In this document: in pieces, positions 1 to 10,121 of the stretch | How the letters are laid out: the number at the start of each line of letters is the position of its first letter | Numbering within the stretch: the stretch's first letter is position 1 | Assembly: GCF_902832885.1 (NCBI RefSeq) | Contig: NZ_CADFDK010000005.1 | Coordinates: forward strand, 62,001-126,000 | DNA length: 64,000 bases | Direction: 5' to 3' | Source of the DNA: Burkholderia seminalis DSM 23518 | GTDB lineage: Bacteria > Pseudomonadota > Gammaproteobacteria > Burkholderiales > Burkholderiaceae | Program-made: the position numbers and the translations under genes | The notes under the pieces: generated by a model | What the model was told of the DNA's origin: nothing | Databases searched by the model: none | What the model saw: only the letters and a program-made list of their open reading frames with translations

Positions 1-744
1 GACCAGCTTGCCGTTGATGAAGTTCATCGGCGGCGCGCCGATGAAGCCGGCGACGAACAGGTTCGACGGCGAATCGTAGATCTCCTGCGGCGCGCCGAAC
101 TGCTGGACCACGCCGTCCTTCATCACCGCGATCCGGTCGCCGAGCGTCATCGCCTCGATCTGGTCGTGCGTCACGTAGACGATCGTCGTGCCGAGGCGCT
201 GGTGCAGCAGCTTGATTTCCGCGCGCATCTCGATGCGCAGCTTCGCGTCGAGGTTCGACAGCGGCTCGTCGAACAGGAACAGCGACGGATCGCGCGCGAG
301 CGCGCGGCCCATCGCGACGCGCTGGCGCTGGCCGCCCGACAGCTGGCCCGGCTTGCGGTCGAGCAGGTGCTGGATCTGCAGCATCTGCGACACGCGGTCG
401 ACGATCTGCTGCTGCTCGCTCTTCGGCACCTTGCGGATGTTCAGGCCGAACGAGATGTTCTCGCGCACCGTCATCGACGGATACAGCGCGTACGACTGGA
501 ACACCATCGCGATGTCGCGATCCTTCGGCGACAGGTCGTTGACGACCTTGCCGTCGATGCAGATCTCGCCGCTCGTGACGGTCTCGAGCCCGGCGATCAT
601 GTTGAGCAGCGTCGACTTCCCGCAGCCCGACCCGCCGACCAGGATCAGGAACTGACCGTCCTCGATCTCGATGTCGACACCCTTCAGGACCGGCACCCCG
701 TTCGGGTAGGTCTTGTACACGTCACGGATGGAAAGGCTTGCCAT
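1..744 (-). CDS. gtsD: Sugar ABC transporter ATP-binding protein, GtsD/MalK type (3' end outside window)
   Basis: Cytoplasmic ATPase that powers a carbohydrate importer together with the two permeases and binding protein upstream. The 248 visible residues contain Walker [10 protein letters not shown] (37-45), the Q-loop Gln near 83, the LSGGQ signature (135-139), Walker B LFLFDE (155-160) and the H-loop His 193. This is a complete nucleotide-binding domain of the MalK/UgpC group. The C-terminal regulatory OB domain typical of the group lies beyond the window edge. It is the last gene of a four-gene minus-strand operon. A GC-rich hairpin without a T-run (771-790) sits in the gap to the permease gene. 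Substrate glucose/mannose is inferred from the binding protein. Confidence 0.93.
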
Positions 745-856
745 GCTGTGAATCCTCTGTCTCGTCTCGCGCGGCGCCCTCGGGCGCCGCGTCGGGTTCG
801 TTTCGATGCGCCGCGCGTCGTGCGCGGCCGGTTCGTCGTATCGGAAAAAGCCGCGC

Positions 857-1714
857 TTACCCCTTCACCGCGCCTGCCGTCAGCCCGCGCACGAAATAGC
901 GGCCGGCGACGATGTAGACGAGCAGCGTCGGCAGCGCGGCGATGATCGCGCCGGCCATGTCGACGTTGTATTCCTTCACGCCCGTCGACGTGTTGACGAG
1001 GTTGTTCAGCGCCACCGTGATCGGCATCGAATCGACGCCGGAGAACACGATCCCGAACAGGAAGTCGTTCCAGATCTGCGTGAACTGCCAGATCAGGCAC
1101 ACCATGAAGATCGGCAGCGACACCGGCAGGAGGATCTTCGTGAAGATCGTGAAGAAGCCCGCGCCGTCGATGCGCGCGGCCTTCACGAGCTCGGCCGGCA
1201 CGCTCACGTAGAAGTTGCGGAAGAACATCGTCGTGAACGCGATCCCGTACACGACGTGCACGAACACCAGGCCCGGAATCGTGTTGGCAAGACCGAGCAT
1301 CCCCTGCAGGCGCGCCATCGGCAGCAGGATCACCTGGAACGGGATGAAGCAGCCGACCAGCATCATCGTGAACAGCGCGTCCGCGCCGCGAAAGCGCCAG
1401 TGCGTGAGCACGTAGCCGTTGAACGCGCCGATCAGCGACGAGATCAGCACGGCCGGAATCACCATCTGCAGCGAGTTCAGGAAGAACGGCTTCATGCCGT
1501 CGCAGCGCACGCCGGTGCACGCGCCGCTCCACGCCTTCACCCACGGGTCGACCGTCCACGTGGTGGGCGGCGTCAGCAGGTTGCCGGTGCGCAGCTGGTC
1601 GAGATCCTTGAACGACGTCGACAGCATCACGTAGATCGGGAACAGGAAATACAGCGCGAACAGGATCAGTGCCGCATAGATCACTGCCCGGCTGATCGTC
1701 ATCTTAGGCTGCAT
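857..1714 (-). CDS. gtsC: Carbohydrate ABC transporter permease, MalG/GtsC type
   Basis: Inner-membrane permease of 285 residues, the usual size for MalG-like subunits. An N-terminal membrane segment (about 11-31) is followed by five more hydrophobic stretches. The cytoplasmic coupling loop has the EAA pattern ([14 protein letters not shown], about 176-189) that docks on the ATPase. The start ATG overlaps the end of the preceding permease gene by 11 nt, which implies translational coupling. By position and similarity of the whole set to the Pseudomonas gtsABCD system it should carry glucose and perhaps mannose; the substrate is an inference. Confidence 0.92.
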
Positions 1715-2642
1715 TGCGGGTGCTCCTCGATTCCATATACATCAGCGGCACCAGCACCGCGACCACGGTCGCGAGCATCATCACCGAGGACGCCGCGCCG
1801 AGCCCGAGCTGGCCGCGGTTGAACGAAAACGTGTACATGAACATGGCCGGCAGCGACGACGACGTGCCCGGCCCGCCCGCCGTCAGCGCGACGACGAGGT
1901 CGAAGGTCTTGATCGTGATGTGGCAGAGGATCAGCAGCACCGAGAAGAATACCGGGCGCATGCTCGGGATCACGATCTTGCGGTAGATGGTCGGCAGCGT
2001 CGCGCCGTCCACCTGCGCGGCCTTGAAGATCTCGCTGTCGACGCCGCGCAGCCCCGCCAGGAACAGCGCCATCACGAAGCCGGTCGACTGCCACACGGCC
2101 GCGATCACCACGCAGAAGATCGCCTTGTCCGGATCGTCGAGCCAGCCGAACGAGAAGCTCGTCCAGCCCCAGTCGTGCATCACCTTCTCGAGGCCGAGGC
2201 CCGGGTTCAGGATCCACTGCCACGCGGTGCCGGTGACGATGAACGACAGCGCCATCGGGTACAGGAAGATCGCGCGCAGCGCGCCTTCGTTGCGGATGCG
2301 CTGGTCGAGCAGGATCGCGAGGAACAGCCCGAGCGCGACGCAGATCGCGATGAACGGAATCCCGAACCAGCCGAGGTTCGCGGCGGAGGTCCACCACACG
2401 TCGTTCTGGAACAGGTCCGAGTAACGGCCGAAGCCGTCGAATTCGTAGTTCGGCAACAGCCGCGAGCGGGTCAGCGACAGATAGCCGGTAATCAGGATGA
2501 AGCCGTAGATGAACACCACGGCGATCGCGACGCTCGGCGCAAGCACGAGCTTCGGAATCCAGCGATCGGCGAAGGCCGACATCGGCGACGTACGCCGCGC
2601 GGCGGCAGCGCCGGATCCGTTTCCGCTAAGAGGGGCAGCCAC
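1704..2642 (-). CDS. gtsB: Carbohydrate ABC transporter permease, MalF/GtsB type
   Basis: Inner-membrane permease, 312 residues from the chosen start, with about six membrane segments and an EAA coupling loop (EIFKAAQVDGATLP). I chose the GTG at 2642 because AGGAG lies nine bases upstream. A longer reading from 2699 would add 19 Pro/Ala-rich residues and run into the terminator region. Homologous to MalF/UgpA-type subunits and paired with the MalG-type subunit next door. Because an intrinsic terminator lies between it and the binding-protein gene, its expression is probably lower than that of gtsA. Confidence 0.9.
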   Translation of the reverse strand: MAAPLSGNGSGAAAARRTSPMSAFADRWIPKLVLAPSVAIAVVFIYGFILITGYLSLTRSRLLPNYEFDGFGRYSDLFQNDVWWTSAANLGWFGIPFIAICVALGLFLAILLDQRIRNEGALRAIFLYPMALSFIVTGTAWQWILNPGLGLEKVMHDWGWTSFSFGWLDDPDKAIFCVVIAAVWQSTGFVMALFLAGLRGVDSEIFKAAQVDGATLPTIYRKIVIPSMRPVFFSVLLILCHITIKTFDLVVALTAGGPGTSSSLPAMFMYTFSFNRGQLGLGAASSVMMLATVVAVLVPLMYMESRSTRNAA

Positions 2643-2730
2643 TTGATTCGACTCCTGGAACGAGGGCGACGCAGGCCGGGCCGGCGCCGGGTACGGCACG
2701 GGCCCGCGGGCGAGCCCGTTTGCTGCACTT

Positions 2731-2769
2731 GCAAAAACGCCCGGCCGACGAAGCGTTTCCGGCCGGGCG
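2731..2769 (-). terminator. Intercistronic intrinsic terminator between gtsA and gtsB
   Basis: On the minus strand a 9-bp GC-only stem (arms 2761-2769 and 2738-2746, 14-nt loop) is followed directly by TTTTT. It lies about 12 nt after the gtsA stop and about 90 nt before the gtsB start. Partial termination here would give more binding protein than permease, a common arrangement for sugar importers. Confidence 0.75.
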
Positions 2770-2780
2770 CCTGTCGCGCG

Positions 2781-4028
2781 TTACTTGACCTTCGCGGCCT
2801 TCGCGAGCGCGGCGACCGCGCTCTTCGAATCCTGCTGCGAGTTCATGAACTTCGTGACGACGTCGGTGATCGCGCCGGCGGTCGCGTCGCTTTGCGCCAT
2901 GCCGTGCGCGAGCGACGGCACGAAGCCGCCCGACTTGATCGCGGTCTGCTCGTCGGCGTACGACTTCTTCGCGCAGTCGTCGAACTTGTCCATCTTCACG
3001 CCGAGGCGCACCAGCACCGAGCCCTTCAGCAGGCTGAACTGCTCCTGGAAGTCCGGCGTCATGATCGTCTTCGCGAGCGCGAGCTGGCCCGGCGTGGCGT
3101 TCTTCTCGCCCTTCTGCTGGAAGAACACGAACGAATCGACGTTGAACGTGTACGCGTTCGCCGTACCCGGCACCGCCGCGCAGATGTAGTCCTTGCCCGC
3201 CTTCTTGCCGGCGTTCTCGAACTCGCCCTTCGCCCAGTCGCCCATGAACTGCATGCCGGCCTTGCCGTTGATGACCATCGCGGTCGCGAGGTTCCAGTCG
3301 CGTCCGTTACGGCCCGTGTCGAAGTAGCCCTGGATCTTGCGCACCGTGTCGAACACGGACAGCATCTGCGGCGACGTCAGCGTCGCCTGGTCGAGGTCGA
3401 CCAGCGCCTTCTTGTAAAACGCCGGGCCCTGCGACAGCACGACGTCTTCCCACAGCGTCAGGTCCTGCCACGGCTGGCCGCCCATCGCGACCGGCTGGAT
3501 GCCCGCGGCCTTCAGCTTGTCGGCCACCGCGAAGAATTCGGGCCAGGTGGTCGGCACCTTCGCGCCGACCTTGTCGAGCGCGGCCTTGTTGATGTACAGC
3601 CAGTTCACGCGGTGCACCGAGAACGGCGCGGCGACGGTATGGCCCTTGTACTTGATGATCTTGTCGATTTCCGGCGGCAGGTTCTGCTTCCAGTCGCCGG
3701 CGGCGGAATCGATGTTGACGAGCACGCCCTGGTCGGCCCAGTCCTGGATCAGCGGGCCCTTGATCTGCGCGGCCGACGGTGCGTCGCCGCTGATCACCTT
3801 GGTCTTCAGCGCGGTCATCGCCGCGGCGCCGGCGCCGCCCGCGACCGCGAAGTCCTTCCACACGTAGCCCTGCTTCTGCAAGTCGTCCTTCAGCACGCCG
3901 ACGGCCTTCGACTCGCCGCCCGAGGTCCACCAGTGCAGCACGGTTACATTCTCGGCTGCCTGCGCCGCCACGGCGCCAGCCATCAGACCCGCGGCGCAGA
4001 GCGCGCCCATGATCGAGCGAACTTTCAT
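2781..4028 (-). CDS. gtsA: Periplasmic sugar-binding protein of the Gts glucose/mannose-type importer
   Basis: Extracytoplasmic solute-binding protein (family 1), 415 residues. It starts with a Sec signal peptide (basic MKVRSIM, hydrophobic core, AQA cleavage near residue 24) and continues with VLHWWTSGGE, the usual beginning of the mature protein in this group. As I recall it, Pseudomonas GtsA shows the same blocks: HWWTSGGE, FAVAGGAG, SVHRVNWLY, GRDWNLATAM, MGDWAKGEF and FNVDSF. A strong Shine-Dalgarno (GGAGGAG) precedes the ATG. The gene faces zwf across a 431-bp control region, linking uptake of the sugar to its oxidation. Glucose or mannose is the likely ligand, from homology and context. 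Confidence 0.93.
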   Translation of the reverse strand: MKVRSIMGALCAAGLMAGAVAAQAAENVTVLHWWTSGGESKAVGVLKDDLQKQGYVWKDFAVAGGAGAAAMTALKTKVISGDAPSAAQIKGPLIQDWADQGVLVNIDSAAGDWKQNLPPEIDKIIKYKGHTVAAPFSVHRVNWLYINKAALDKVGAKVPTTWPEFFAVADKLKAAGIQPVAMGGQPWQDLTLWEDVVLSQGPAFYKKALVDLDQATLTSPQMLSVFDTVRKIQGYFDTGRNGRDWNLATAMVINGKAGMQFMGDWAKGEFENAGKKAGKDYICAAVPGTANAYTFNVDSFVFFQQKGEKNATPGQLALAKTIMTPDFQEQFSLLKGSVLVRLGVKMDKFDDCAKKSYADEQTAIKSGGFVPSLAHGMAQSDATAGAITDVVTKFMNSQQDSKSAVAALAKAAKVK

Positions 4029-4363
4029 TACTTATCTCCTCCAGACTGAATCAACTCGTGAGGTTCCCTGACCGGGAACCGGCTTCTTGATAAACGACGG
4101 GGAAATCGAGCCGCGGGACGCATGCAGCGTACGGGCCGATGACCGGCCGGGCTCTTACAGAAAGCGTGAATCGAGATTCAACGGCGTGTCTCCTCTTTGT
4201 GTTTCTGGCCCGCCGCGATGATGCGACGCGAGCCCGGGGCCGACGGCGCGCGGACGATGCGCGTCGCCAATGTCCGATAACATTCGGCACAAGGCGCTCC
4301 CGAAGGCGAAGCTCGCGCAGTTCATCGACCGCACATCTTTTTTTCTTCACCCAGGTGCTACCC

Positions 4364-4402
4364 CTTGCGGCGGATTGTAGTTAAACTACAATTCAGTGTC
4401 AA
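4364..4402. promoter_or_regulatory. Shared HexR-type operator with face-to-face promoters for gtsABCD and zwf-pgl-glk/hexR
   Basis: ATTGTAGTTAAACTACAAT (4374-4392) is a perfect 19-bp palindrome around a central A and fits the TGTAGT-N3-ACTACA form of HexR operators. On the minus strand TTGACA (4402-4397), a 17-bp spacer and TACAAT (4379-4374) make a near-consensus sigma-70 promoter toward gtsA. On the plus strand TTGCGG (4365-4370), 16 bp and TACAAT (4387-4392) make a promoter toward zwf. Each arm of the palindrome is therefore a -10 box. The probable regulator is the C-terminal half of the glucokinase fusion encoded downstream. The rest of the 4029-4459 gap shows no gene. Confidence 0.8.
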
Positions 4403-4459
4403 AAATATTTTTATCGCACTACGGATCGCTTCCCAGCACCCCCAACACGGCGGAGACAC

Positions 4460-5929
4460 ATGCATACCGATTCCAGCTTTACCTTCGTCCTTTTCGGCGG
4501 CACCGGCGATCTGTCGATGCGCAAGATCCTGCCCGCGCTGTTCGAAGCGCACCGCGCGAACATGCTCGCGGAGAGCGGCCGGATCGTGGCCGTGGCGCGA
4601 CACGAATCGGATCGGGCGGCCTATCTCGAATGGGTCGATACGCACGTGAAGCCGCATGCGGCAAAGGCCGCCGGCAACGCGCTCGACGAAGCCGCATGGA
4701 AGTCCTTCCTCGACCGCATCGAATACGTGAAGCTCGACCTCGGCCGCGCGGAAGACTACGTCGTGCTGCGCGACGCGATCTCGTCGCTGCCGGGCATCCG
4801 CGTGTTCTATCTCGCGACGGGCCCGTCGCTGTTCGTGCCGATCTGCAAGGCGCTCGCGTCGGTCGGCCTGAACGAAGGCGCACGCATCGTGCTCGAGAAA
4901 CCGCTCGGCTACGACCTGAAATCGTCGAACGCGATCAACGACGCGGTCGGCGAGATCTTCGCGGAAGGCCAGATCTACCGGATCGACCACTACCTCGGCA
5001 AGGAGCCGGTGCAGAACCTGCTCGCGCTGCGTTTCGGCAATGCGCTGTTCGAGCCGCTGTGGCGCCGCGAATGGGTCGAGAGCATCCAGATCACGATCGC
5101 CGAGGAGCTCGGCGTCGAGGCGCGCGGCGATTTCTACGACAATACCGGCGCGCTGCGCGACATGGTGCAGAACCACCTGCTGCAACTGCTGTCGATCGTC
5201 GCGATGGAGCCGCCGCATTCGATGGATTCCGACTCGGTGCGCGACGAGAAGCTGCGCGTGCTGCGCGCGCTCAAGCCGGTCGATCCGCGCGACATCGGCA
5301 AGGTGGCCGTGCGCGGCCAGTATCATGCGGGCGTGATCAAGGGCGCGCAGGTGCCGGCCTACGCGACCGAGCCGGGCGTGAAACCCGACAGCCAGACCGA
5401 AACCTTCGTCGCGCTGAAGGTCGAGATCGAGAACTGGCGCTGGGCCGGCGTGCCGTTCTTCCTGCGCACCGGGAAGCGTCTGGCCGACCGCGTCGCGGAG
5501 ATCGTCGTCAACTTCCGCCCGGTGCCGCACTCGGCGCTGGGCCCGACCGCGCTGCGTCCCGGCTCGAACCGCCTCGTGATCCGGCTGCAGCCGAACGAGA
5601 CGATCCGCCTGTACTGCCTCGCGAAGCAGCCCGGCGAAGGGATGAACCTCGCGAGCGTGCACCTCGACCTCGCGTTCGACCAGTTCTTCAAGGAAGGGCA
5701 GATGGAGGCGTACCAGCGCCTGCTGCTCGACGTGATCAACGGCCGGCTCGCCCTGTTCGTGCGGCGCGACGAACAGGAGGCCGCATGGCGCTGGGTCGAG
5801 CCTATCCTGAACGAATGGGCGCGCTCCCTGAAGCCGCCGAAGCCGTACGCGGCGGGTACGTGGGGGCCGGCCGCGTCGAGCGCGATGCTCGCGCAGCACG
5901 ACACCTGCTGGCTCGAAGAAGAGAACTGA
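4460..5929 (+). CDS. zwf: Glucose-6-phosphate 1-dehydrogenase
   Basis: Oxidises glucose-6-phosphate to 6-phosphogluconolactone with NAD(P)+, the first step of the pentose-phosphate and Entner-Doudoroff routes. At 489 residues it has family length. The N-terminal Rossmann motif is FGGTGDLSMRK (about 12-22), EKPLGYD lies at 146-152, and the active-site signature RIDHYLGKEP at 174-183 contains the catalytic His. First gene of a three-gene operon, 58 nt downstream of the control region. A GGCGGAG stretch lies upstream of the ATG. Expected to be released from repression when Entner-Doudoroff intermediates accumulate, as with HexR targets in pseudomonads (inference). Confidence 0.97.
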   Translation: MHTDSSFTFVLFGGTGDLSMRKILPALFEAHRANMLAESGRIVAVARHESDRAAYLEWVDTHVKPHAAKAAGNALDEAAWKSFLDRIEYVKLDLGRAEDYVVLRDAISSLPGIRVFYLATGPSLFVPICKALASVGLNEGARIVLEKPLGYDLKSSNAINDAVGEIFAEGQIYRIDHYLGKEPVQNLLALRFGNALFEPLWRREWVESIQITIAEELGVEARGDFYDNTGALRDMVQNHLLQLLSIVAMEPPHSMDSDSVRDEKLRVLRALKPVDPRDIGKVAVRGQYHAGVIKGAQVPAYATEPGVKPDSQTETFVALKVEIENWRWAGVPFFLRTGKRLADRVAEIVVNFRPVPHSALGPTALRPGSNRLVIRLQPNETIRLYCLAKQPGEGMNLASVHLDLAFDQFFKEGQMEAYQRLLLDVINGRLALFVRRDEQEAAWRWVEPILNEWARSLKPPKPYAAGTWGPAASSAMLAQHDTCWLEEEN

Positions 5930-5937
5930 TGCAAACC

Positions 5938-5965
5938 GTTGCCGGGCACGATCGTGCCCGGCAAC
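5938..5965. repeat. 28-bp perfect palindrome between zwf and pgl
   Basis: Two 14-bp arms (5938-5951 and 5952-5965) are exact reverse complements with no spacer, built around GGGCACGATCGTGCCC. It starts 8 nt after the zwf stop and is not followed by a T-run. It is therefore more likely an mRNA-stabilising or processing hairpin than an intrinsic terminator. Confidence 0.85.
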
Positions 5966-6015
5966 GTGCCCCACGATTCGTACGATTTGAACAGACAAAG
6001 CAGTCCGGAGGAGAT

Positions 6016-6696
6016 GTGATCGAGATCCACGCTTTCGACACCCAGGAAGCGCAAAGCGAAGCGCTCGCGCGCGCCGTCGGCGATGCGCTGCGCGCGGCGC
6101 TCGCCGGCGCCGCGCGCCCGACGCTCGCGGTGTCCGGCGGCACGAGCCCGCGCCCGTTCCTGCACACGCTGTCGCACGCGGCGCTCGACTGGGCCGGCGT
6201 CGACGTCACGCTGGTCGACGACCGCTGGGTGCCGGAGGACGACGCGGCCAGCAACGCGCAGCTCGTGCGCGACACGCTGCTGCAGCACGCGGCCGCCCCT
6301 GCCCGCTTCCTGCCGCTCGTCGACACGCGCAGCACGCTCGACGCGCACGTCGCCGCGCTGAACGCGAACGCCGACTACCGCGTACCGACCGTCGCCGTGC
6401 TCGGCATGGGCGAGGACGGCCACACCGCGTCGATCTTCGCCGACGCGCCCGAATGGGACCACGCGATCACGACGCCCGAGCGTTTCGTCGCCGTGCACCC
6501 CGGCGCCGCCCCGCATGCGCGCGTGAGCTATTCGCTCGATGCGCTCAAGCGCGTCGAGCGCCTGTTCCTGCTGATCGCGGGCGAGCGCAAGCGCGCCGTG
6601 CTCGACGCCGCCGCCGCGTCGCTGCAGAAGAACGCGATTTCCCAACTGGCCAACGACAAGGGGACCCAGCTCGATGTCTACTGGTGCGCAAAGTAA
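6016..6696 (+). CDS. pgl: 6-phosphogluconolactonase
   Basis: Hydrolyses 6-phosphogluconolactone, the product of Zwf. The glucosamine-6-phosphate isomerase/6-phosphogluconolactonase fold is shown by [13 protein letters not shown] near residue 38, [14 protein letters not shown], and [13 protein letters not shown] place the start at the GTG (226-residue product, beginning MIEIHAF) because GGAGGAG stands immediately before it. An in-frame ATG at 5929 would read through the 28-bp palindrome and add 29 atypical residues. Its 3' end overlaps the next start by 23 nt. Confidence 0.94.
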
Positions 6697-8602
6697 GGTG
6701 GTCGTCGCGGGTCAGCATGCCGACGGTCCGCGCCTGCTCGCGGACGTCGGCGGCACCAACGCGCGCTTCGCGCTGGAAACCGGCCCGGGCGAAATCACGC
6801 AGATCCGCGTCTATCCCGGCGCCGATTACCCGACGATCACCGACGCGATCCGCAAGTATCTGAAGGACGTGAAGATCAGCCGCGTGAACCACGCGGCGAT
6901 CGCGATCGCGAACCCGGTCGACGGCGACCAGGTCACGATGACCAATCACGACTGGAGCTTCTCGATCGAGGCGACGCGCCGCGCGCTCGGCTTCGACACG
7001 CTGCTCGTCGTCAACGACTTCACCGCGCTCGCGATGGCGCTGCCGGGCCTGACCGATGCGCAGCGCGTGCAGGTCGGCGGCGGCGCGCGCCGCCAGAACA
7101 GCGTGATCGGGCTGCTCGGGCCCGGTACCGGGCTCGGCGTGTCGGGCCTGATTCCGGCCGACGACCGCTGGATCGCGCTCGGCAGCGAGGGCGGCCACGC
7201 GTCGTTCGCGCCGCAGGACGAGCGCGAGGACCTGGTGCTGCAGTACGCGCGCAAGAAGTTTCCGCACGTGTCGTTCGAACGCGTGTGCGCCGGCCCCGGC
7301 ATGGAGATCATCTATCGCGCGCTCGCCGCGCGCGACAAGAAGCGCGTCGCCGCGAGCGTCGACACGGTCGAGATCGTCGAGCGCGCGCATGCGGGCGACG
7401 CCCTCGCGCTCGAGACGGTCGAATGCTTCTGCGGGATTCTCGGCGCGTTCGCGGGCAGCGTCGCGCTGACGCTCGGCGCGCTCGGCGGCGTGTACATCGG
7501 CGGCGGCGTCGCGCTGAAGCTCGGCGAGCTGTTCACACGCTCGTCGTTCCGCGCGCGCTTCGAGGCGAAGGGCCGCTTCACGCACTATCTGCAGAACATC
7601 CCGACCTACCTGATCACCGCCGAATACCCGGCGTTCCTCGGCGTGTCGGCGATTCTCGCCGAGCAGCTGTCGAACCGCTCGGGCGGCGCGTCGTCGGCCG
7701 TGTTCGAGCGGATCCGCCAGATGCGCGACGCGCTGACGCCGGCCGAGCGCCGCGTGGCCGATCTCGCGCTGAACCATCCGCGCTCGATCATCAACGATCC
7801 GATCGTCGACATCGCGCGCAAGGCCGACGTGAGCCAGCCGACCGTGATCCGCTTCTGCCGCTCGCTCGGCTGCCAGGGGCTGTCGGACTTCAAGCTGAAG
7901 CTCGCGACCGGCCTCACCGGCACAATCCCGATGAGCCACAGCCAGGTGCATCTCGGCGATACGGCCACCGACTTCGGCGCGAAGGTGCTCGACAACACGG
8001 TGTCCGCGATCCTGCAGTTGCGCGAGCACCTGAATTTCGAGCACGTCGAGAACGCGATCGAGATCCTGAACGGCGCACGGCGCATCGAGTTCTACGGTCT
8101 CGGCAACTCGAACATCGTCGCGCAGGACGCGCACTACAAGTTCTTCCGCTTCGGCATTCCGACGATTGCGTACGGCGACCTGTACATGCAGGCTGCGTCG
8201 GCCGCGCTGCTCGGCAAGGGCGACGTGATCGTCGCGGTGTCGAAGTCCGGCCGCGCGCCCGAGCTGCTGCGCGTGCTCGACGTCGCGATGCAGGCCGGCG
8301 CGAAGGTGATCGCGATCACGTCGAGCAACACGCCGCTCGCGAAGCGCGCGACCGTCGCGCTCGAAACCGACCACATCGAGATGCGCGAGTCGCAGCTGTC
8401 GATGATCTCGCGGATCCTGCATCTGCTGATGATCGACATTCTCGCGGTCGGCGTCGCGATCCGTCGCGCGTCGACGAACGGCGAGCTGCCCGACGCCGTC
8501 GCGCAGGCGAAGGCGCGCGCGAGCGACGACGAAACGGCCGACGTGCTCGACTGGCTGAGCCACGGCGCGTCGCCGGCGGCGAAGGACGTCGCGCGGGACT
8601 GA
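6674..8602 (+). CDS. glk: Bifunctional glucokinase / RpiR-family regulator (HexR-like)
   Basis: A 642-residue fusion. Residues about 20-335 are a complete ROK-independent (Glk-type) glucokinase: [14 protein letters not shown] (21-34), NDFTALA (114-120), GPGTGLG (149-155) and IGGGVALKL. Residues about 345-420 form an RpiR helix-turn-helix ([14 protein letters not shown], then [16 protein letters not shown]). Residues about 460-600 form a SIS sugar-phosphate-binding domain ([31 protein letters not shown]). The first half makes glucose-6-phosphate from imported glucose. The second half probably binds the palindrome at 4374-4392 and senses a phosphorylated sugar acid, like HexR. Such fusions are known in Burkholderia. 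The binding assignment is inference from domain and operator type. Confidence 0.95.
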
Positions 8603-8640
8603 CGCGCGGTGCGGCGGCAGCCGCTTCCTGCGTCCCAACG

Positions 8641-8678
8641 AAAAACGCCACCGGCGCATCGCGCGCGGTGGCGTTTTT
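8641..8678. terminator. Bidirectional intrinsic terminator
   Basis: A 13-nt arm AAAAACGCCACCG (8641-8653) pairs with 8666-8678, giving A-run and T-run ends on both strands. It serves the glucokinase operon (plus) and the convergent MFS gene (minus). Confidence 0.9.
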
Positions 8679-8701
8679 CATTCCGCGGCCCGGCTAGCGG
8701 T

Positions 8702-9919
8702 TCAGGCACCCGCCTTCACCGGCCGACCGTGCCAGCGCAGCACCAGATAACGCCCGACGAAGCACAGCACGCCCGACACGCCGATCGTCATGCCCATCGC
8801 GAACGGCGTGCCGTCCGCGAGTGCGCCGATCGCGACGCTCGCGAGCGCGCCGAGCGCGAGCTGCATCGCGCCGAACACCGCCGCCGACGCGCCCGCGTTG
8901 TGCGGATAGCGGTGCATCAGGTCGGTCGTGCAGTTCGCGGACAGGATCCCGACCACGCCGACCACGAAGAACAGGCACACGACGATCGACCACAGCCCGC
9001 CCCACCCGGTCAGCGCGACGAGCGCGACCGCGAGCGACGCGACGGCGCTCACCAGCGACGCGGCCGCGATGATGCGCAGCGAGCCGATGCGGCCGACGAG
9101 GCGCGTGTTCGCGAAGTTGCCGATCATGATCCCGACGACGTTCAGGCCGAACAGCAGCCCGTAGTGTTGCGGCGATACGTGGAAATACTCGATGTACACG
9201 AACGGCGTCGCGGTAATGTACGAGAACATCGCCGCGAACGCCATCCCGCCGCACAGCATGTGCCCCCACGCGACCGGGTCGGACAGGATGCGCCCGTACG
9301 ACGCGAACGACGCGAGCACGGCCGTGCTCTTGCGCCGCTCCTTCGGCCAGGTTTCGGGCACGCGCAGGTAGGCGGTCGCCGCGCATACCGCGCCGAACAC
9401 GGCCAGCACCACGAACACGCCGCGCCAGCCGGAAAAACGCAGGATCTGGCCGCCGATCAGCGGCGCGAGCAGCGGCCCGACCGCGGTGACGATCGCGACC
9501 ATCGACAGCACCTTCGCCGCATCGCTCGGCTCGTGCGCATCGCGGGCGATCGCCCGCGCGAGCACCGACGCGGCGCCGGCACCGAGCGCCTGCAGGAAGC
9601 GCACGACGATCAGCATGTCGATCGAGCCCGACACGAAACAGCCGATGCTCGCGAGCGTGAACAGCGCGATGCCGCCGAGCAGCACGGGACGGCGCCCCCA
9701 CGTATCGGACAGCGGACCGTACAGCAGCATGCCGACCGAGAAGCCGGCCATGAAGCTCGTCAGCGTGCGCTGCGCGGCGCCGGCGCTGACGGAAAAGCCG
9801 TCGGCGATCGACGGCAGGCTCGGCAGGTACATGTCGGTGGCGATCGGACCGCAGGCGGCGAGCGCACCGAGCAACAGGATCAGCCGGGCATCGGGCCGGC
9901 GCCGGACGACGTGAGACAT
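8702..9919 (-). CDS. Bcr/CflA-family MFS drug exporter
   Basis: Twelve-segment inner-membrane transporter of 405 residues. The DHA1/Bcr-CflA signature is clear: ATDMYLPSLPSIA in TM1, GQ-like FSVGMLLYGPLSDTWGRRPVLL in the TM2-3 loop, and RFLQALGAGAASVLARAIARD in TM4-5. Relatives export bicyclomycin, chloramphenicol or sulfonamides, and some export peptides or cysteine. The specific substrate cannot be read from sequence. Transcribed alone, convergent with the glucokinase operon, and followed by the shared terminator. Confidence 0.92.
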   Translation of the reverse strand: MSHVVRRRPDARLILLLGALAACGPIATDMYLPSLPSIADGFSVSAGAAQRTLTSFMAGFSVGMLLYGPLSDTWGRRPVLLGGIALFTLASIGCFVSGSIDMLIVVRFLQALGAGAASVLARAIARDAHEPSDAAKVLSMVAIVTAVGPLLAPLIGGQILRFSGWRGVFVVLAVFGAVCAATAYLRVPETWPKERRKSTAVLASFASYGRILSDPVAWGHMLCGGMAFAAMFSYITATPFVYIEYFHVSPQHYGLLFGLNVVGIMIGNFANTRLVGRIGSLRIIAAASLVSAVASLAVALVALTGWGGLWSIVVCLFFVVGVVGILSANCTTDLMHRYPHNAGASAAVFGAMQLALGALASVAIGALADGTPFAMGMTIGVSGVLCFVGRYLVLRWHGRPVKAGA

Positions 9920-10121
9920 GGGTATCCGGAATGGAGCCCGCGCGCATCGCGGCGCGCGTGGCGGTGAAGACGGGAGGCCGCGCCACGGATGGCGCGTTCA
10001 GGCCCATGATTGTACGCGCAACTTTTTTGCGCGCCTCCGGCCGCGTACGATGGCGGGCGCGCAAGCGGATTCGATTAAGCTTGCCGCTCTCGTCCGATCA
10101 TTTGAATGCCCGACCGAACCG

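Follow-up and report, generated by a model that had tools for sequence, protein, structure and literature searches.

The window, a 64,000-nucleotide stretch of the Burkholderia seminalis DSM 23518 genome, carries near one end two divergent gene blocks for sugar oxidation and sugar uptake, separated by a short control region (Table 1). The plus-strand operon consists of zwf, a second frame that we take to be pgl from its position and a sequence motif, and, as the third gene, a fusion of glucokinase and HexR. The 642-residue fusion protein matches NF010701 (“bifunctional transcriptional regulator/glucokinase”) at 1342.9 bits and the stand-alone HexR model NF008451 at 236.7 bits, under the cut-off of 296. 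The minus-strand block encodes a gts-like ABC importer, for which glucose is the likely substrate; the NCBIfam matches of its binding protein and permeases all lie under their cut-offs. The layout is that of a HexR regulon, with an RpiR helix-turn-helix and SIS regulator encoded together with its putative targets, which comprise zwf, pgl, and glk plus sugar uptake or edd genes.

Table 1. Genes and control elements around the palindrome (window coordinates)
Feature	Position	Strand	Basis
gtsD-like ATPase, cut by window end	1..744	-	PF00005
gtsC-like permease	857..1714	-	PF00528
gtsB-like permease	1704..2699	-	PF00528
gtsA-like sugar-binding protein	2781..4028	-	PF01547; best NCBIfam match glucose-binding GlcS, far under cut-off
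T-tract, 54-60 bp upstream of predicted zwf start	4339..4345	+	8/10 columns of 4339-4348 at >=95%
Weak -35 TTGCGG, zwf-directed promoter, spacer 16	4365..4370	+	TTG in 74/76 distinct rows
Predicted palindromic operator ATTGTAGTTAAACTACAAT, core TGTAGTTAAACTACA at 4376-4390	4374..4392		Symmetry, conservation, likeness to Vibrio HexR motif
-10 hexamer TACAAT, gts-directed promoter	4374..4379	-	Consensus scan; fits TAnAAT
-10 hexamer TACAAT, zwf-directed promoter	4387..4392	+	Sequence; 75/76 distinct rows
-35 hexamer TTGACA, gts-directed promoter	4397..4402	-	Consensus scan; 75/76 distinct rows
A/T-rich stretch just upstream of gts-directed -35, putatively UP-element-like	4403..4412	-	Conserved
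Degenerate second operator or half-site (ACTAC at 4418-4422)	4408..4424	+	ACTAC columns 75-76/76
zwf, glucose-6-phosphate dehydrogenase	4460..5929	+	TIGR00871 above cut-off
pgl (presumed), 6-phosphogluconolactonase	6016..6696	+	Open reading frame; tblastn relatives at same place
glk-hexR fusion: glucokinase + RpiR helix-turn-helix + SIS	6674..8602	+	PF02685, PF01418, PF01380

The palindrome ATTGTAGTTAAACTACAAT was located by inspection of the window sequence. Its two 9-bp arms are exact reverse complements flanking a central A, and the site differs from its own complement at one position because this centre base is unpaired. Over 100 shuffles of the 64-kb window that preserved dinucleotides, and with 3 mismatches allowed, it was matched 0.00 times on average. 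The core TGTAGTTAAACTACA agrees at 13/15 positions with the HexR motif predicted for Vibrio, TGTAATTAAATTACA (PMC11906056): both are 15-bp pseudo-palindromes with the same centre, a shared TTAAA, and they differ at two symmetric inner positions, which are A/T in Vibrio and G/C in Burkholderia. The HexR rule given for Pseudomonas putida is TTGT-N7/8-ACAA (PMC5902321, PMC5489143), whereas the spacing here is N9, so that we assign the palindrome to the 15-bp Vibrio/RccR type rather than to the P. putida type. The Pseudomonas system is nevertheless alike in its RpiR-SIS repressor, its zwf and sugar gene targets, its divergent layout, and its inducer, 2-keto-3-deoxy-6-phosphogluconate (KDPG), until the binding of which HexR acts as a repressor (PMC5902321, PMC5489143). 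It differs in that HexR is a separate protein and the operators lie at +1 to +30 of zwf and at -18 to -6 of gap-1 (PMC5902321, PMC5489143), whereas in Burkholderia one palindrome provides both -10 elements.

The gts-directed promoter matches the sigma-70 consensus at 11/12 positions, with a 17-bp spacer, and is the sole promoter-like match that a consensus scan returned within 4000-4800; the pattern TTGACA-N16-18-TAnAAT occurs once on either strand of the whole 64 kb, at this promoter. In random flanks placed beside the operator, a 6/6 TTGACA at a spacer of 16-18 is expected on one side with a probability of 0.0002 for the composition of window positions 1-10000 and 0.0007 for local composition. 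The zwf-directed promoter was read from the window sequence and was not listed by the scan because TTGCGG matches TTGACA at just 3/6 positions. It fits the promoter consensus measured in Burkholderia cenocepacia (TAnAAT and TTGCC; PMC4603805) better than that of Escherichia coli, TACAAT agreeing exactly with TAnAAT and TTGCG agreeing with TTGCC at 4/5 positions. The -35 and -10 sets of the two promoters interleave within 4365-4402 and are conserved, as in overlapping divergent promoters. The predicted transcription starts are at about 4367 (gts-directed, minus strand) and about 4399 (zwf-directed, plus strand), 32 bp apart. The bidirectional promoters described in E. coli are likewise built on pseudo-symmetric DNA, onto which polymerase can load facing either way, and differ in sharing one -10 element, with starts mostly 18 and also 10 or 23 bp apart (PMC12825309). 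The Burkholderia site does not belong to that type: its two -10 elements are separate, 13 bp apart from start to start, and lie one in each arm of the predicted operator. Thus, the initial annotation, which had described a perfectly symmetric site overlapping two face-to-face promoter cores, holds for the symmetry, apart from the unpaired centre base, for the strong gts-directed core, and, despite the weak -35, for the zwf-directed core.

To follow the site across genomes, we searched named genomes with the fusion protein and obtained 80 loci, 79 of which hold zwf. In this alignment of the gap, which covers Burkholderia as the initial annotation had proposed, the palindrome is found at the same place in 79/79 zwf-bearing loci and as the exact 19-mer in 78, the remaining locus (L023) differing in the last base. 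A gtsA-like gene is divergent in 78 of the 79 and is absent from L032. A column table of 80 rows (the 79 loci and the window; 76 distinct) was anchored on the palindrome; the anchoring is gap-free, so that indels shift rows and far columns score lower, and the conservation of 4374-4391 reflects the choice of rows, which were picked by the 18-bp core. Around the palindrome, the columns conserved at >=95% among the distinct rows number 0/35 in 4304-4338, 8/10 in 4339-4348, 0/8 in 4349-4356, 11/17 in 4357-4373, 28/32 in 4393-4424, and 0/35 in 4425-4459. Conservation is confined to the surroundings of the palindrome and has sharp edges. The gts-directed TTGACA and the plus-strand TACAAT are each kept in 75/76 distinct rows and the TTG of the plus-strand -35 in 74/76; in most Burkholderia rows this -35 reads TTGCGG, and in most Paraburkholderia rows TTGATT.

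Loci with other gene arrangements separate the operator from its partner genes. Among 29 operator copies compared, 25 have TTGACA and face gts (11), edd (13), or a porin gene (1). The four copies without TTGACA (L114-L117, all from group g140) face none of these: zwf and the palindrome are present, the fetched stretches contain neither gtsA nor edd, and L115 retains a partial gtsB. The -35 readings in g140 are TCGACG, TCGACG, TTGGCA, and, at that spacing, CTTAAC, the TTGGCA of L117 being a mild change. L032, which is separate from the 29 copies, has no gts and reads TCGATG; in a tree of 34 Zwf proteins, the topology of which was read by eye, it falls inside the Burkholderia clade, apart from g140. 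Because the g140 cases represent one lineage, these are two independent -35 losses and not five. In two separate lineages, then, the gts-directed -35 is changed where the partner gene is missing, and the operator is retained; the plus-strand -35 drifts as well in several of these rows.

In the 13 genomes of a second group, g5 (L123-L129 and L133-L138), possibly Pandoraea, edd is divergent from zwf-pgl-glk/hexR in 13/13, and the palindrome and TTGACA are kept; the edd of L126 was also identified by TIGR01196. In G328, gts and glk-hexR are immediate divergent neighbors with an intact gts-directed promoter between them, and the plus-strand -10 reads TACATC. G311 has two operator-promoter blocks (L113:4278 and L113:5738), both with TTGACA, one at gts and the other between a porin gene (PF13609) and glk-hexR.

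The same loci bear on whether the zwf-directed core functions as a promoter. The palindrome could be a HexR operator that supplies the -10 of the gts-directed promoter alone, with zwf starting elsewhere and the plus-strand TACAAT arising as a by-product of operator symmetry; TACAA does belong to the operator itself, and the plus-strand -35 is weak and drifts in several zwf-bearing rows, being lost in L023, L032, L115, and L116 and, in L121, displaced by one position, in all of which zwf is adjacent. We nonetheless consider this unlikely, given that TTG stands at exactly 16 bp in 74/76 distinct rows and in 13/13 g5 genomes, where its last bases differ, and that no other promoter-like match was found in 4000-4800. 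The plus-strand -10 is moreover altered in the three copies without adjacent zwf (L122 and both L113 copies: TACATC, TACACT, or TACAGA), though alterations occur with zwf adjacent as well (TACATT in L115 and TACACT in L124 and L125).

Beside the two promoter cores, the conserved block includes further elements. The half-site ACTAC lies 33 bp from the matching operator arm, toward zwf, and recurs with unchanged offset in L124, L125, and the two G311 copies; over the half-site region, L124, L125, and the second L113 copy match at 12/17 positions. It reads GCTAC at 32-33 bp in the four g140 rows and ACTAC in L032. An extra half-operator is found 34 bp away on the other side in 11/13 g5 genomes (L123, L126-L129, and L133-L138), and neither position is occupied in L122. 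The simplest reading of this recurrence is that the half-site is probably a weaker second HexR contact. The A/T-rich stretch is largely kept in loci without gts; both it and the half-site stay where gts is absent, so that they are not parts of the gts promoter alone. The T-tract is a possible distal UP site or gts leader element. The predicted gts leader (window 4029-4366) is long, about 340 nt, and ranges from about 150 to 480 nt among relatives; it has a conserved A-rich stretch near its start. The consensus scan gave no second gts promoter in 4029-4373, and an Rfam search over 3900-4700 returned no family at E up to 1, which leaves no known leader RNA at this place. We also rejected a leader peptide beyond the gts start: in the 10 rows examined, reading frames and lengths disagree.

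Across the family, the palindrome is tied to the Glk-HexR fusion. The exact pattern TTGTAGT-N3-ACTACAA was found in 61/150 family genomes, at one place each and in 7/25 genera, and its reversed control in 1 genome of the 150. All 61 are among the 78/150 genomes in which the protein search found a full-length fusion, and the exact palindrome occurs in 0/72 genomes without one. By match positions, 60/61 exact copies share a contig with the fusion and precede its start by 2-3 kb; in the other genome (G427), the contig breaks before the fusion, and the palindrome copy faces gts and zwf on another contig. The remaining 17 fusion genomes, all of which were fetched, have a near copy (15-16/17 matches) beside zwf, gts, or glk-hexR. 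This co-occurrence, together with the 13/15 agreement with the predicted Vibrio motif, supports the earlier assignment of the palindrome as a HexR-type operator. Four small g140 genomes (G305, G321, G351, and G361) gave no copy in the search, which covered the exact pattern alone. In these genomes, the fusion match ends at residue 340-398, the HexR part being mostly or wholly gone or unreadable.

The genome of the window encodes a second HexR-like regulator, divergent from edd, and such a stand-alone, RccR-like paralog could be the true binder, the fusion being mainly a glucokinase. The paralog scores higher than the fusion against the HexR model (253.6 versus 236.7 bits, both under the cut-off of 296). 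RccR of Pseudomonas fluorescens also resembles the present case in its 15-bp sites TGTAGTAAAACTACA, the half-sites of which, TGTAGT/ACTACA, are identical to those here, in its response to KDPG, and in its paired sites; it differs in controlling aceEF, aceA, pckA, and others, and in a distance of 68 bp between the aceE sites, compared with 33 bp to the half-site here (PMC5489143). A HexR-like paralog adjoins edd in 18/30 edd loci, all 18 of which carry related TGTAG-type sites, so that cross-binding by the paralog is possible; three g152 loci lack a HexR-like neighbor and have TGTAGTATTACTACA some 250 bp before edd. As the main binder, the paralog is quite unlikely in our estimate, in view of the absence of the exact palindrome from every genome without a full-length fusion. 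Furthermore, in G371, where all candidates were scored, nothing but the fusion matches at 1e-40 and the exact palindrome is kept, an indication that the fusion is the binder. In G329 and G344, too, the fusion gives the single match at 1e-40; 8/13 and 8/17 candidates were scored in these genomes, respectively, so that a paralog could have been passed over, and their edd loci show no HexR-like neighbor within the fetched flank.

A search of the window's own genome with up to 3 mismatches gave two further sites, no more than the reversed control (5 and 3); one precedes edd and the other a glycoside hydrolase gene, and both are leads at most. Upstream of edd (L082:1501-1517 and L143), TTGTAGTTTTTCTACTA lies about 95-111 bp before the gene, and the palindrome TTGTAGAAAATCTACAT is nearer to the divergent HexR-like gene. 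The only other perfect TGTAGT-N3-ACTACA in this genome, TGTAGTTTGACTACA (L083:1501-1517), precedes this gene, which belongs to glycoside hydrolase family 3.

Taken as the operator of the Glk-HexR fusion, the palindrome would lie inside two overlapping divergent promoter cores, so that both operons are repressed and induced jointly; we assign this reading a probability of about three in four. The strong promoter would drive the ABC sugar importer and the weaker one zwf-pgl-glk/hexR. When sugar is absent, a HexR dimer bound at 4374-4392 would mask both -10 elements and shut off both operons, including its own gene, and the half-site 33 bp toward zwf would probably add a second, weaker contact. 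Once sugar is metabolized to KDPG, the SIS domain would bind this compound and HexR would leave the DNA, inducing import and oxidation together. Since both polymerase footprints cover the same DNA, one polymerase would load at a time and the two transcripts would share one loading site; mutual exclusion is thus expected from the geometry.

The initial annotation had gone further and proposed a two-way switch between importing and metabolizing the sugar. In such a switch, competition of polymerases at the common core would make import and oxidation alternate. We found no support for it: although both -10/-35 sets occupy the same 38 bp, where simultaneous loading should be impossible, and competition was reported for E. 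coli bidirectional promoters when one direction is strongly activated, basal firing of the five studied was reported as too low for competition (PMC12825309), and a single repressor acting on both promoters and released by KDPG, as in Pseudomonas, predicts co-repression and co-induction rather than a choice between two activities that the pathway needs at once, which makes alternation highly improbable.

Joint control from one operator within opposed promoters has a precedent in which the parts are arranged alike. Overlapping divergent promoters are a known class, and in the E. coli biotin operator, one palindrome inside the opposed bioA and bioB promoters binds one repressor for both, as predicted here, with the difference that the repressor and ligand are BirA and biotin, from another pathway and another regulator family. 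The Glk-HexR fusion has been named for Paraburkholderia xenovorans, where zwf1-pgl-glk is said to adjoin ABC hexose transporters (PMC12568896). In our comparison, the environmental strain P. xenovorans LB400 (L041) carries the palindrome as well. HexR operators, overlapping divergent promoters, and the Glk-HexR fusion are each already known. A literature search over titles and the openings of abstracts, which did not extend to the 2011 comparative paper on HexR (PMC3195618), returned no description of this Burkholderia control region. As far as that search reaches, the use of the two operator arms as -10 elements that face each other, with exchangeable partners, is new. The unusualness claimed initially stands for this feature and not for an operator overlapping two opposed promoters. 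The half-site, the exchange of partner genes among family members, and the second HexR-like regulator with its similar sites go beyond the initial annotation.

Going beyond joint control by the fusion, we tentatively propose that the Glk-HexR operator of Burkholderiaceae could be a symmetrized core promoter, an interchangeable plug that drives whichever of edd, gts, or porin genes faces it. Polymerase would take either orientation by chance, and a HexR dimer, aided by the half-site three helical turns away, would close both directions. If this is so, asymmetry in the DNA of one 38-bp core would determine how much uptake there is relative to oxidation. At this conserved site, the bases of the predicted repressor operator would also make up two -10 elements, and variants missing one partner or the other occur naturally. 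Set side by side, these variants could reveal how selection acts on operator symmetry independently of promoter direction, and how a fusion of glucokinase and repressor regulates both sugar uptake and the operon that encodes it.
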